Assembly (NCBI RefSeq): GCF_001050195.2
Contig: NZ_DF967965.1
Location: 1,403,278 to 1,441,211 of the forward strand
DNA length: 37,934 nucleotides
Source: Anaerolinea thermolimosa
GTDB lineage: Bacteria; Chloroflexota; Anaerolineae; Anaerolineales; Anaerolineaceae
Direction: 5' to 3'
Made by a program: the position numbers and the translations under genes
Notes under the pieces: generated by a model
Told to the model about the DNA's origin: nothing
The model's database searches: none
Seen by the model: the letters and a program-made list of their open reading frames with translations, nothing else
Shown: positions 880-5,268 of the stretch, piece by piece
Layout: every line of letters starts with the position of its first letter
Numbering within the stretch: position 1 is the first letter of the stretch

Positions 880-908
880 TTGACACAGAACTAATGTTCT
901 ATTACAAT
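880..908 (+). promoter_or_regulatory. Near-consensus sigma-70/sigma-A promoter giving a leaderless transcript
   Basis: TTGACA (880-885), a 17-bp spacer and TACAAT (903-908). The ATG at 915 begins 7 nt after the last base of the -10 hexamer, where transcription is expected to start, and no Shine-Dalgarno sequence lies in between. The layout decides the start of the HTH gene: the in-frame ATG at 894 lies inside the promoter spacer and would not be transcribed. Confidence 0.8.
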
Positions 909-914
909 GATTTT

Positions 915-1322
915 ATGAGTCTTTGGGAGCGATTACGCGCCTGGTGGAACGGCAGTGATCCGACCTCTGAGCGGCGGGAGTTTGCTCTCGATTCTCACCT
1001 CCTCAACACCCTTGATGCGCTCTCCCGCCAGACGGGTATCTCTGAAGAGGCTCTGGCTAACGACCTTCTCGCCACTGGCTTGCAGGCCCTTTCGCGGCGC
1101 GATGAACTCTGGCAATGCTGGCAAATGCTGACACCACGCGAGCAGCAGGTTGTTGCCCTGGCCTGTCTGGGACTCACCAACCGCCAGATTGCCTCCCGCA
1201 TGGGCATCTCACCCGACACCGTCAAAACGCACCTCCGCGCGGCTACAGCCAAGTTCGGTGTGCATACCAAAGCGGAGTTAAACCTGTTGTTGAGTGAGTG
1301 GGATTTCTCTGCCTGGGTCTGA
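915..1322 (+). CDS. Small LuxR-type HTH DNA-binding protein, first gene of the polymerase cassette
   Basis: 135 residues from the leaderless ATG at 915. The C-terminal half (about 76-130) is a LuxR/GerE helix-turn-helix: LTPREQQVVALACLGLTNRQ, followed by IASRMGISPDTVKTHL. The N-terminal half (about 22-60) has the LDSHLLNTLDALSRQTGISE pattern, which resembles a ribbon-helix-helix or other small dimerisation unit. There is no receiver domain, so it is probably not a phosphorylated response regulator. It is the first gene on a strand where three further genes follow closely, so it may regulate or autoregulate the cassette; that role is inference. The HTH assignment is firm, the function is unknown. 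Confidence 0.8.
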   Translation: MSLWERLRAWWNGSDPTSERREFALDSHLLNTLDALSRQTGISEEALANDLLATGLQALSRRDELWQCWQMLTPREQQVVALACLGLTNRQIASRMGISPDTVKTHLRAATAKFGVHTKAELNLLLSEWDFSAWV

Positions 1323-1414
1323 GTCGCTTCTCCCCCCTTGGGTTAATCCTTCAATCCCCCCCTTTTTCACCCCTGTGGGAATGGCTGAGTGCCTCCAGCC
1401 AGAGTACGATAGGG

Positions 1415-1948
1415 ATGATGAACCTGGCCCCTTATCTGGATACGAATACCCTGGTAGTGCTTTGTGGTGCACAGGCTGTGACCCACAAAGCTAACCGCCT
1501 GGTAGCATGGCTGGCTCTGCGCGGCCCCCTAGAGGTGATCGATGCTGGCAATCGCCTCCAGCCTTACTGCCTGGCTCATTTCCTGCGCGAGCATACCACC
1601 GAAACCGAAACATGCGCTCAGCATATTCACCTTCAACGCGCTTTCACAGCTCATCAGGTGGTAGCAGCTCTCGAAGCCGCTCCAGCTTTCTCGACCCCGT
1701 TGGTAGTGCTCGACCTGCTGGCCACCTTCTATGACGAAACGCTCCCCCTGCCCCAGGCCAGAGTCTTGCTCAGGCATAGCCTGGCCCATCTGGAGCGCCT
1801 GCGGCAGACTACCCCACTGTTTATCACCGTCAGACCGCCGCCCAGCCCCGCCCGCCGCGGTTTTTTTGAAGCTGTCTGCCATTCCGCCTCGGTAATTTTC
1901 CTCGATCCCGAACCGACTCCTGTTCTTTCTCAACCCCGATTATTATGA
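1415..1948 (+). CDS. RecA-superfamily-like protein with degenerate Walker A (ImuA-like in character)
   Basis: About 177 residues from the ATG at 1415 (MMNLAPYLDTNTLVVLCGAQ); the frame is open back to 1298, so a longer N-terminus is possible. The order of elements suggests a RecA/KaiC-like core. LVVLCGAQ leads to a loop where a P-loop would sit, but this reads GAQAVTHKA, not GxxxxGK[ST]. A central RAFTAHQVVAALE helix follows, then a hydrophobic strand ending in Asp (PLVVLDLLATFYDE) in the Walker B position, then LFITVRPP. If the fold is right, ATP hydrolysis is unlikely. It lies between the HTH gene and the polymerase genes and ends 10 bp before the next ATG. RecA-like non-ATPase partners of specialised polymerases (ImuA type) are the closest analogy. 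The fold call is moderate and the function is inference. Confidence 0.55.
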   Translation: MMNLAPYLDTNTLVVLCGAQAVTHKANRLVAWLALRGPLEVIDAGNRLQPYCLAHFLREHTTETETCAQHIHLQRAFTAHQVVAALEAAPAFSTPLVVLDLLATFYDETLPLPQARVLLRHSLAHLERLRQTTPLFITVRPPPSPARRGFFEAVCHSASVIFLDPEPTPVLSQPRLL

Positions 1949-1958
1949 GGTCAATCTT

Positions 1959-2243
1959 ATGGGACGCACTGTTGCCACCATTACCCAGCATCTTAATGAG
2001 ACCGAAGCCATGTTACAACGTTTTCGCCGCACGCTGCGCCGTCAAGATCAGGTTCTTTTCGATGGTCTCATGGCCTCGGCACACGCTCACATTGCGGCCA
2101 TTTCAGAAGCACAGGCACTCCTGCCTTTCGAAGTTGCTCTGCTGGCCATGCTCCTGGAACAACACCGCCAAATCGCTCACCTGAACCAGCGGGTAGCCGA
2201 CCTTGAACAATCTTTTGGTATGTTCCATCCTGATGCGCGCTGA
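1959..2243 (+). CDS. Small helical protein of the polymerase cassette, function unknown
   Basis: 94 residues from the ATG at 1959, with GAGG nine bases upstream. The sequence is almost entirely helix-forming (MGRTVATITQHLNETEAMLQ at the start, EQHRQIAHLNQRVADLEQSF near the end), and the C-terminal heptads suggest a short coiled coil. No known domain was recognised. It begins 10 bp after the RecA-like gene and its last 11 bases overlap the polymerase gene, so the two are probably translationally coupled. A plausible role is an adaptor between the RecA-like protein and the polymerase, which is inference. A different-frame ORF starting at 1945 covers the same DNA but lacks these signals. Confidence 0.65.
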   Translation: MGRTVATITQHLNETEAMLQRFRRTLRRQDQVLFDGLMASAHAHIAAISEAQALLPFEVALLAMLLEQHRQIAHLNQRVADLEQSFGMFHPDAR

Positions 2244-4386
2244 GATTCTGGGCTGGCTGTTGGATGTCTACACTCGCCCGAGCGGCGAGTTGGTCTGCTG
2301 GCTGCTTGGGAAAGACGGCCAGCGTTGGTTGCTTCCGATGGATTTCCCGGTAACTTTTTATGCCGGTGGTCGCCCTGAGCACCTGCGGCAAGCCTGGCGG
2401 GCAGTGACCGACTCCTCTGTTCAAAAAGCCCGCGCTGTCCGTGCCGATCTTTTCGGTCGCGAGCAGATACTCCTGTCGCTCACGGCGCCTACGCCGGGGC
2501 AGGCCGGAGCACTCTATCACCAGTTGAGCACCACCTTCCCTCACCTGGATTACTACGATGCCGATGTGCCTCTGGGGGTACGCTTCATGGCATACACCGG
2601 TGTTCCGCTTCTGGGGTACTGTCGCTTCCAAACCGACGGCCAATCTTTAATTTCCCTGGAACCACTCGAATCTCCCTGGGAACTGGTGCCCTCTCAACCA
2701 CCCCTGCGGGTCATGGAATTAACATGCAGTTCTGACCCTGCCCTCAAGCTTCCCTCAACCCTCATGCTGCATTGCGGCACGTGGGTTTACCATCTGGCAT
2801 TACAGCCACTACGTGCCTTTCTGGCAAACTTTCAGGCCATTCTCCAACGATACGACCCGGATGTAATTCTGACGGACTACGGTGATGCCTGGTTCTTCGC
2901 GTTTCTAAGAGAGTCAGCTCCGCACTTCAACCCCAACCGTGACCCCATCATGCCGGTAGCCTTTCAGCGCGAGCGCAGTCTGTTTGCATACGGCCAGGTG
3001 CTCTATCGCGCCCGGCAGGCTCACCTCTTCGGACGCTGGCATATAGACCGTTGCAACGCCGCCCTGTTTGGTGAGATCGGACTGGAGGGGGTGCTGGAAC
3101 TGGCGCGCGTGACTGGTCTGGGCGTGCAAGAAGCCGCCCGCAAGTCTCCGGGGGCGGGCATTACAGCCATGCAAATGCACACTGCTCTGCGTGACCGGGT
3201 ACTTATCCCGGTTGCCAAGGCTCAGGCCGAAACCCCCCGTACACTGAATGATCTTATCCAACATGACCGAGGTGGACTGATCTACCAGCCTTTAATCGGA
3301 GTGCACAAATACGTAGCCGAGATCGATTTCACCTCGATGTACCCTTACATCATGGTCAACCACAATATTTCTCCCGAAACTCTGGGGTACCATGACGCCA
3401 CTTCAGGGCTGGTTCCACGCACGTTACGCCCCCTGTTGGAAAAGCGCACTGCCCTTAAACGTTTTTTATGCACACTCGATCGTCGTGATTGCCGTGTACC
3501 CCTGCTTCAGGCGCGCCAGAAGGCTCTCAAGTGGCTGCTGGTAGTATGCTTTGGTTATCTGGGCTACAAGAATGCCCGCTTTGGACGAGTCGAGTCGCAT
3601 GAGGCGGTGACCGGTATCAGCCGTGAGCTCTTATTACAGTCCAAGGAGGTTGCTGAAGAGCTGGGTTTTACCGTCCTGCACATGTATGTAGATAGCCTCT
3701 TCGTTTGGCATGCAAAGAGCACCCGGGAAGAGGATTTCACCCCCCTGCTTCTTGCCATTGAACGCCAGACGGGCATTCCGGTAACTCTGGAAGGCGTCTA
3801 CCAATGGCTGGTCTTCCCGCCTGCCAGAAGGCATCCGAGTATTCCAGTTCCCAACCGCTATTTTGGAGCCTTCAACGATGGCCGGGTAAAAGTGCGCGGG
3901 CTGGCCTTACGCCGGCATGATACACCGCGCTTTGTGGCCGAAACACAGTGGCATCTCCTCAGCCTGCTCGCACAGTCCGAAAACCCCGAAGAACATGCAG
4001 AGGCGGCCCGGGCCTTTGCGAAGGCGCAGCTGAGCCGTCTGGCACGGCGAGACGTGCCTGCGGAAGATTTGAAGGTGGCGGTAAAACTACGTCAGCGACC
4101 AGAGATCTGCCTCAGGCCTGGACCGGCAGCACAGGCGGCCCGGCAGTTGCATGAGAGGGGAGTGACCATTCGGCCCGGGATGCGCTTATTTTTCTGGTTC
4201 ACACGTCAGGGGATAAGCGTGACCCAGCCGCCGCCAGAAGCGCTCGACCTGGAACGATATGCCCGCCTGGTTCAGCGTGCCGTAGATGAGGTGCTGGAGG
4301 TTTTCAAACCGCCGCCTCCTCTGTCTCTGCAATTGCGGCTGGATTCTTTCGCTTTCCCCGCCTGTACCTGCCCTCAACGCCCGTAG
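2233..4386 (+). CDS. Divergent family-B DNA polymerase, probably exonuclease-deficient
   Basis: 717 residues from the ATG at 2233, overlapping the upstream gene by 11 bp. Three polymerase motifs are visible. Motif A is EIDFTSMYP with Asp365. Motif B is QKALKWLLVVCFGYLGYKN with Lys433, where the usual NSxYG is VCFGY. Motif C is MYVDSLFV with Asp487, where families normally have YxDTDS, so the first Asp is replaced by Tyr. The main metal-binding Asp of motifs A and C and the motif B Lys remain, so polymerisation is possible. The exonuclease region is degenerate: the DxE of motif I is replaced by VMELT (160-164), and motif II survives only as DPDVILTDYGD (208-218). At 717 residues it is shorter than most replicative family-B enzymes. 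The altered motifs and cassette context recall archaeal PolB2/Dpo2-like enzymes and suggest damage bypass, which is inference. The 3' end overlaps the opposite-strand methyltransferase gene by 13 bp. Confidence 0.85.
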   Translation: MRAEILGWLLDVYTRPSGELVCWLLGKDGQRWLLPMDFPVTFYAGGRPEHLRQAWRAVTDSSVQKARAVRADLFGREQILLSLTAPTPGQAGALYHQLSTTFPHLDYYDADVPLGVRFMAYTGVPLLGYCRFQTDGQSLISLEPLESPWELVPSQPPLRVMELTCSSDPALKLPSTLMLHCGTWVYHLALQPLRAFLANFQAILQRYDPDVILTDYGDAWFFAFLRESAPHFNPNRDPIMPVAFQRERSLFAYGQVLYRARQAHLFGRWHIDRCNAALFGEIGLEGVLELARVTGLGVQEAARKSPGAGITAMQMHTALRDRVLIPVAKAQAETPRTLNDLIQHDRGGLIYQPLIGVHKYVAEIDFTSMYPYIMVNHNISPETLGYHDATSGLVPRTLRPLLEKRTALKRFLCTLDRRDCRVPLLQARQKALKWLLVVCFGYLGYKNARFGRVESHEAVTGISRELLLQSKEVAEELGFTVLHMYVDSLFVWHAKSTREEDFTPLLLAIERQTGIPVTLEGVYQWLVFPPARRHPSIPVPNRYFGAFNDGRVKVRGLALRRHDTPRFVAETQWHLLSLLAQSENPEEHAEAARAFAKAQLSRLARRDVPAEDLKVAVKLRQRPEICLRPGPAAQAARQLHERGVTIRPGMRLFFWFTRQGISVTQPPPEALDLERYARLVQRAVDEVLEVFKPPPPLSLQLRLDSFAFPACTCPQRP

Positions 4387-5108
4387 ACTGAAATGCAGTT
4401 TCGGCTATTGGCGGTGAAAGGCTCTCGTCTCCAGCTTGCCCAGCGTTCCTTCAGCCTCAAACCGGCAATGCGGGCCATCAGGTCAAGCTCAGAGGGCCAG
4501 ACCAGCCGTGTGACGATAGGATTCAGGCGCACCCCGGCTGGCCCAAACGTAATATGGCTTTCTTCCAGCAACTGAGTCACCGGGTCAAAGCGCGCTACAT
4601 CCAGCCGTACTCCATCCACTTCCACTGCTTCAGCATCCACGTACTGATAATTGCGCAGGCGGTAAAACTCGGCTGGCACTCCACCCTCCAGGACAAACAC
4701 CCCCTCATCCATGAGGTGTTTTGCCACATTCTCAAAACAGCGTACCTGTTCATCCTGTGTGAGCAAATTGAAGAAGGTATTGAATACCAGGTAAATTAGC
4801 CGGTATTTACCCTCTACGGGCACGTCTGCAAAGTTTCCCACTGTCACTTCAATATGCTCTCCCCCTGGTTTGTCATGCAGGCGTTGAAGCATAGGAAGTG
4901 AAAGGTCGATTCCCATCACCTTTACCCCTTCAGCCGCCAGCGGCAGAGCAATTCGTCCAGTACCAATGGCCAGTTCTAAAGCAGGTCCATCACCTGCCAG
5001 GTCTTTCAGAAAAGCCACTGTTTCGGCTTCATCTCCGCGTTGGGCGGTCTGGTCATAAATGGCGGCAGTTTCTTCATCAAAACTCATTATAGGTTGGTAA
5101 TTTTTCAT
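4374..5108 (-). CDS. Class I SAM-dependent methyltransferase
   Basis: 244 residues from the ATG at 5108 (MKNYQPIMSFDEETAAIYDQ). SAM-binding motif I is ALELAIGTGRIALPLA, followed by VMGIDLSLPML with the acidic residue that binds the ribose. A TVGNFADVPV segment follows and then a hydrophobic LIYLVFNTFFNLL strand at the position of motif IV. The layout (YDxxA at the N-terminus, methyltransferase fold, beta-rich C-terminus) is that of small-molecule methyltransferases of the Methyltransf_25 type; the substrate cannot be read. The frame is open to 5258, but that extension is low-complexity and runs through an 8-bp tandem repeat, so the shorter start is preferred. It lies downstream of the MFS gene on the same strand, 160 bp away. 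Confidence 0.8.
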   Translation of the reverse strand: MKNYQPIMSFDEETAAIYDQTAQRGDEAETVAFLKDLAGDGPALELAIGTGRIALPLAAEGVKVMGIDLSLPMLQRLHDKPGGEHIEVTVGNFADVPVEGKYRLIYLVFNTFFNLLTQDEQVRCFENVAKHLMDEGVFVLEGGVPAEFYRLRNYQYVDAEAVEVDGVRLDVARFDPVTQLLEESHITFGPAGVRLNPIVTRLVWPSELDLMARIAGLRLKERWASWRREPFTANSRNCISVYGR

Positions 5109-5137
5109 CTTTTCTCGTGAGCCGGGGAGGACTTGGG

Positions 5138-5169
5138 TTGCTTTGTTGCTTTGTTGCTTTGTTGCTTTG
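5138..5169. repeat. Tandem repeat of an 8-bp unit, four copies
   Basis: Four head-to-tail copies of TTGCTTTG lie just upstream of the methyltransferase start. The unit length is not a multiple of three, so copy-number change would shift any frame through it, and it sits where it could also alter promoter spacing. Confidence 0.85.
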
Positions 5170-5268
5170 CTTTTGGGTTTTTTGTGTGTTACGAAATGGC
5201 TATGCGCAATACAAGACCACATACTGAAAGATGCCACCGGGATGCAAACCGCGCCCAACAGTATACCC

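Follow-up and report, generated by a model that had tools for sequence, protein, structure and literature searches.

The PolB2 (G2) polymerases are counted among the bacterial DNA polymerases (PMC12926913) and are marked by lost ExoI and ExoIII motifs, an altered motif C, and a D(K/R) motif (PMC7544198). Makarova 2014 (PMC4104785) linked PolB2 to an inactive RadA and to arCOG07300 in a predicted operon, which in certain bacteria takes in lexA as well. The names PPB2 and iRadA come from Timinskas 2025 (PMC11791011), where the bacterial gene order is given as iRadA-PPB2-PolB2 and the archaeal and bacterial PolB2 mutasome is modelled as a heteropentamer. Here, I describe such an operon from Anaerolinea thermolimosa that is headed by a gene for a LuxR-type helix-turn-helix (HTH) protein. 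It was found in a window of 37,934 nucleotides (the whole stretch of DNA that was analysed; contig NZ_DF967965.1, positions 1,403,278 to 1,441,211). Its sequence suggests that a second regulatory tier likely stands over the PolB2 mutasome, with the HTH gene behind a LexA-type promoter and iRadA behind an inner promoter of its own. A previous sequence-only reading had called the cassette undescribed, which is wrong for the core because the three-gene operon and the mutasome model are already published (PMC4104785, PMC11791011). Against the literature searched, what looks new is the LexA-type box at the operon head and the HTH-linked inner promoter before iRadA.

All four same-strand genes with close or overlapping ends that had been listed previously were present: the HTH gene (915..1322, ATG start at 915), iRadA (1415..1948, ATG), PPB2 (1959..2243, ATG), which encodes a small partner protein of PolB2, and the PolB2 (G2) polymerase gene (2233..4386, ATG, 717 aa), all on the plus strand. 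The 5' end of the polymerase gene overlaps PPB2 by 11 nt, and the order iRadA-PPB2-PolB2 on one strand is that of the known PolB2 mutasome. The assignment of the 717-residue protein to family B was borne out by Pfam DNA_pol_B (8.5e-21), while NCBIfam NF004416 matched at 2.4e-106, yet below the model's own cut-off. The motif A Asp is retained (residue 365) and is preceded by an HDRGG motif, motif C reads YVD with loss of the first catalytic Asp of DxD, and the exonuclease I position reads MEL without the acidic pair; D-x-D was present in 0/42 aligned polymerase rows. PPB2 begins with MGRT, the conserved arm of this protein (PMC11791011), and across 42 aligned members M and G did not vary, with R and T conserved to 90% or more. 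iRadA had no Pfam match; its family profile matched RadA in the PDB (1.1e-7), and its AlphaFold model (predicted local distance difference test score 88, 8 sequences) matched Dmc1/Rad51/RadA chains in Foldseek (best 3.6e-7). Its D.GN and RAFTC.Q blocks align with RadA and no P-loop was visible in the alignment, in keeping with an ATPase-dead RadA/Rad51 homologue, so that the RecA-like protein without a Walker A of the sequence-only reading held up, with the Rad51/RadA fold by profile and model rather than another fold. Judging by sequence and structure model, genes two to four are almost certainly a bacterial PolB2 (G2) mutasome with an inactive RadA, PPB2, and an exonuclease-dead PolB2, and the translesion role predicted for this module from published models is well supported. 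The window iRadA ends in QPRLL and many relatives end in QxxLF, which resembles a clamp motif (as read from the alignment, not motif-scored); a beta-clamp motif in iRadA or PolB2 has been reported for part of the family (PMC11791011).

For comparison, 44 related loci were assembled, the window included, of which one on a cut contig (L085) was dropped from operon counts. iRadA and PPB2 were found by profile upstream of polB on the same strand in 43 and 42 of the 44 loci, mostly directly upstream, so the arrangement is not due to chance and the core neighbours do not vary randomly among relatives. Together with the Rad51/RadA fold and the PolB2/G2 traits, this conservation upheld the proposal of a bacterial PolB-based translesion or mutagenesis module, and of the proposed co-occurrence of four genes the iRadA-PPB2-polB part stood, while the HTH gene is not universal (see below). 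The 4.17 Mb genome (6 contigs) holds a single match to the window polymerase. A replicative or phage polymerase was rejected given the loss of exonuclease and DxD and the operon conserved in related genomes; its motif traits are those of PolB2/G2 and not of a replicative clade, and PHROG polymerase matches to it were partial. None of the four window proteins matched a Y- or C-family polymerase (ImuB, DnaE2).

The sole promoter-like site between positions 600 and 4700 is an outer promoter, TTGACA-17-TACAAT (880..908, plus strand, 11/12 matches), upstream of the HTH gene; the shuffled region gave 1.8 sites on average at a looser threshold. Inside its spacer lies the LexA-type (SOS) box AGAACTAATGTTCT (887..900). 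GAAC-N4-GTTC is the LexA motif of Gram-positive bacteria (PMC3323433). The literature searched, in which few subscription journals were covered, yielded no paper defining a LexA motif for Chloroflexota, and none about a PolB2 regulator or the SOS response in this phylum. Since 42 of 100 window shuffles hold at least one GAACN4GTTC, the single box in the window is not significant on its own, and the LexA reading rests on the lexA layout of the same genome, on genome counts, and on operon heads. The only LexA-domain gene of the genome is preceded by TTGACACAGAACGGATGTTCAAATATAAT in the same promoter layout as that of the operon, and LexA-type sites number 52 genome-wide vs 24 for the reversed pattern. 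At the operon heads (~255 nt, 43 loci), 17 carried AGAACN4GTTCT without a mismatch, 30 when one mismatch was allowed, and 0 the reversed pattern; the corresponding control means were 0.0 and 0.2 in first-order simulations and 0.03 and 0.13 at random places in the same loci. The LexA-type promoter thus very probably places the operon head under LexA control.

The first gene had been read as a LuxR-type HTH protein, and its C-terminus matched Pfam GerE accordingly (1.5e-15), with StyR (1.1e-4) and FixJ (8.8e-4) as best fold matches. The N-terminal segment resembles RHH proteins weakly (Pfam RHH_3, 0.0033, below cut-off), and no receiver or ligand domain was found. Single-sequence searches of 61 related genomes (E<=1e-12 for the HTH) matched PolB2 in 38, some of these matches being fragments (for example in G009), and the HTH in 24, all of them within those 38 and 0/23 among the others (Fisher 2.4e-7, uncorrected for kinship). 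Across 298 genomes of the class, PPB2 was present in 24, and the close HTH family (at least 90 bits) in 14, 13 of which were PPB2-positive. The HTH gene stands directly before iRadA in 18/43 loci and in others lies on another contig, where no repair genes were recognised beside it on inspection of the open reading frame (ORF) lists by eye, no search by family being made. A LexA box with no more than one mismatch precedes each of the ten unlinked or second HTH copies that were checked (L101, cut by a contig end, was outside this check), among them that of Bellilinea caldifistulae (G007, 3.7 Mb; locus L003), whose HTH gene sits on another contig behind a one-mismatch box. In L072, where another ORF separates the HTH gene from iRadA, a box was found only at two mismatches. 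A universal fourth component was considered and weakened, with 14/38 PolB2 genomes lacking the HTH in the single-sequence search; divergent HTH copies later turned up in loci previously called HTH-negative. The HTH is not universal in PolB2 genomes, and it is more likely a regulator than a mutasome subunit.

HTH-positive loci mostly share an element upstream of iRadA that starts with GGTTAACCCC, continues with two further C-runs at ~11-bp steps, and ends in a G-run near -35. In the window, this putative operator of the inner promoter occupies 1341..1384 (plus strand) and is followed by the -10-like hexamer TACGAT (1405..1410, plus strand), which precedes the ATG at 1415 by 4 nt and that at 1418 by 7 nt. 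In 20/26 loci, the G-run is followed after 24-28 nt by a [TC]ANNNT hexamer; such a hexamer stands 6-7 nt ahead of an in-frame start codon in 23/26 loci, vs 165/1680 control starts, which suggests nearly leaderless messages. The element was first spotted by eye, and a 44-bp matrix was then learned on the 18 loci with an adjacent HTH gene, which scored 18.4-39.1 bits. When each locus was left out in turn, 14/18 scored above 5 bits and 15/18 beat the best of 50 shuffles of their own sequence. Loci with a non-adjacent HTH scored 7.7-39.9 bits in 5/7 cases, and 14 HTH-negative loci at most 1.5; in all 14 of the latter, a LexA box (at most one mismatch) takes the element's place upstream of iRadA. 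The operons L003, L058, L069, and L079 have kept the element with neither a LexA box nor an HTH gene upstream, and the Bellilinea relatives L002, L004, and L005 score 34-37 bits. These patterns suggest that the HTH probably acts on the inner promoter.

How specific the element is was judged with a sequence model (R1) built from 26 rows. Among the 61 relatives, R1 found 22 sites at E<=1e-3 in 20 genomes, all HTH-positive, and 20/22 were training sites; in the A. thermolimosa genome, only the operon site fell below E 0.3. Across the class, 13/298 genomes were matched, nine of them with a close HTH, and six matrix-positive HTH genomes stayed above the R1 threshold. The best evidence for the HTH and the element as a unit came from genome G334 (L124, 3261-4220), where the element comes right after an HTH gene with a one-mismatch LexA box and the next gene encodes a TIR-domain protein (TIR_2, 1.7e-22); neither the polymerase nor PPB2 has a match in this genome. 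Element-like sites also lie before an ORF that reads by eye as an RND-like transporter in L152 (1208-1270) and L153 (minus strand, G092:C3:18472-18533), whose source genomes belong to one genus, lack a close HTH, and are two of the four R1-matched genomes without one. Similar operators may therefore serve other LuxR-type regulators, and the element may mark a general LuxR-type operator. In G049:C22 (L143, 1848-2134), a second element copy precedes what seems, by eye, to be the start of a truncated iRadA, with a recombinase-like ORF close by; the operon head may have been duplicated here and survive as a remnant. The other extra sites, found in G030 (two), G024 (two), G023, and G006, had the look of chance matches.

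On a PolB tree of 42 rows (L085 and L088 left out), the promoter type requires six changes, at least four of them on starred branches. Of four independent pairs on starred branches, about three follow HTH presence, none goes against it, and about one shows no difference. By a narrow balance, I take the operon promoters to have changed hands several times, from direct control by LexA to the HTH or back, with a portable regulator-operator pair and a two-step SOS cascade that would make mutagenesis delayed and thresholded.

The circuit that I propose would run as follows. LexA would block the outer promoter in the undamaged state, and its removal upon damage would open this promoter, so that HTH protein is made. 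As it accumulates, this protein would occupy the phased C-rich element, whose end lies near -35 upstream of iRadA, and would recruit RNA polymerase to the weak inner -10, yielding a nearly leaderless iRadA-PPB2-PolB2 message. The resulting complex would extend past lesions with errors, and the mutagenic polymerase would come in at a later, second stage of the SOS response. Apart from the sign of HTH action, this whole path from LexA through the HTH to the mutasome is favoured, with some reserve; as to the sign, the evidence tips slightly towards an activator.

A simple LexA regulon, in which all four genes share one transcript from the outer promoter and the HTH merely travels along or has other targets, is the strongest alternative and still an unlikely one. 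Read-through from the outer promoter could reach the adjacent genes, and the 14 HTH-negative operons manage with a LexA-type promoter alone. Three points speak against such a regulon: within the set of 61 genomes, HTH genes on other contigs are confined to PolB2 genomes and retain their LexA boxes, the four operons above lack a LexA box and have kept the element, and the spacing from -10 to start is fixed in 23/26 loci. The HTH could also be a second lock that represses the inner promoter, shutting off or delaying mutagenesis, and an element overlapping the -35 region is compatible with occlusion. I consider this rather doubtful, since the inner promoters match the -35 consensus at 3.5/6 on average (n=26) and the -10 at 4.0/6, vs 4.75/6 and 5.0/6 in LexA-type iRadA promoters (n=16), and such weak hexamers fit a need for activation. 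Least of all, and very improbably, the element might be an RNA hairpin or attenuator in the HTH-iRadA leader and not a DNA operator, given that its C-run and G-run can pair and that read-through RNA of adjacent operons would presumably contain it, but it lies upstream of the inner -10 of a message that would begin almost at the start codon, and it is kept in L003, L058, L069, and L079 without an upstream HTH gene.

The two-step control was then confronted with 22 new loci, for which HTH and element predictions were made before fetching, with no fixed score cut-off. Nine of ten predicted positives were evaluable and scored 6.6-25.8 bits, six of them at least 18, and the LexA box before their HTH gene was exact in seven, and off by one and by two mismatches in one each. 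The new loci are partly kin of the training set: L104, L105, and L107 share most of the L055 element, and L103 is of the same genus as L062. L113 was the L007 locus again, and L124 was inspected only. The predicted negatives L118 and L120 have no iRadA, and in L121-L123, for which no prediction had been decided, the HTHs are divergent, their boxes exact, and the element scores -7.5, 7.3, and 12.1.

A number of results weigh against the two-step control. Among the predicted positives, L108 and L109 scored 6.6 and 7.8 bits, within reach of C-rich shuffles, the tenth (L112) had no iRadA in its stretch and was not evaluable, and the predicted literal string GGGGAT was present in 1/9 evaluable loci. 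In five of seven predicted negatives (L114-L117 and L119), a divergent HTH gene adjoins iRadA, behind a box that is exact in four and has two mismatches in one; their element scores were -5.8 to 1.5, and of these five evaluable loci only L119 has the LexA box predicted before iRadA. Divergent-HTH loci, of which six in eight scored 7.3 bits or less, are mostly without a recognisable element. In the leave-one-out analysis, 4/18 loci fell under 5 bits and 3/18 did not exceed their own shuffles. In L075 and L081, both from HTH-positive genomes (the latter HTH a weak match), iRadA stands behind a LexA-type promoter and the element is missing. The search for a close HTH came up empty in the genomes that hold L002, L004, and L005 (1.7, 1.7, and 2.3 Mb, of unstated completeness), and 4/13 R1-matched genomes of the class lack a close HTH. 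The independent tree contrasts gave p 0.25 and are too few for a test, and recA had no box at one mismatch or fewer in the 2.5 kb taken.

Some loci depart from the operon layout. Genome G261, the source of both L007 and L112, carries HTH-iRadA-PolB2 without a recognisable PPB2 on one contig and PPB2 without a recognisable iRadA on another. An opposite-strand ORF, an IS110-type transposase by appearance, is inserted between iRadA and PPB2 in L070 (2546-3712), and another ORF between the HTH gene and iRadA in L072 (1586-3031); the element stays with iRadA in both. In L079 (genome G041), one open frame was matched by both the iRadA and PPB2 profiles and is a possible fusion; an iRadA-PPB2 fusion has been reported for some bacteria (PMC11791011). 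Downstream in the window, a minus-strand open frame (4374-5258) converges on polB, shares 13 nt with the polB 3' end, and resembles an S-adenosylmethionine-dependent methyltransferase by eye.

A specific promoter would tie a poorly studied bacterial B-family mutasome to the LexA system, and an extra layer of control is predicted, by which induced mutagenesis would be delayed or made sharper. Among relatives, the change of promoter type is a natural experiment in the rewiring of an SOS circuit, and the unlinked HTH form in Bellilinea caldifistulae GOMI-1 makes the trans step testable.

Compared with described systems, the locus is like the PolB2 mutasome (PMC11791011, PMC4104785, PMC7544198) in gene order, MGRT, the inactive RadA fold, lost exonuclease and DxD, and the link to DNA damage. 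Unlike the mutasome as published, the window operon is headed by a LuxR-type HTH gene with a LexA-type box and carries a predicted inner promoter of its own; neither HTH nor LuxR is mentioned in the main text of PMC11791011. The window HTH shares its C-terminal DNA-binding domain with NarL/FixJ/GerE-type regulators and differs from them in its short N-terminal segment, in which no receiver or ligand domain was found. Pol V (UmuD'2C-RecA) and ImuA-ImuB-DnaE2 are likewise SOS-linked multi-subunit translesion polymerases with a RecA-family partner (PMC11791011, PMC12926913), whereas the window pairs a B-family polymerase with an inactive RadA instead of a Y- or C-family polymerase with RecA or ImuA. 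DdiA of Myxococcus xanthus (PMC12288472) is likewise a dedicated regulator, one that switches on the gene of an error-prone polymerase (dnaE2) in response to DNA damage; unlike the window HTH, DdiA belongs to the XRE family, is LexA-independent, and serves another polymerase family (PMC12288472).

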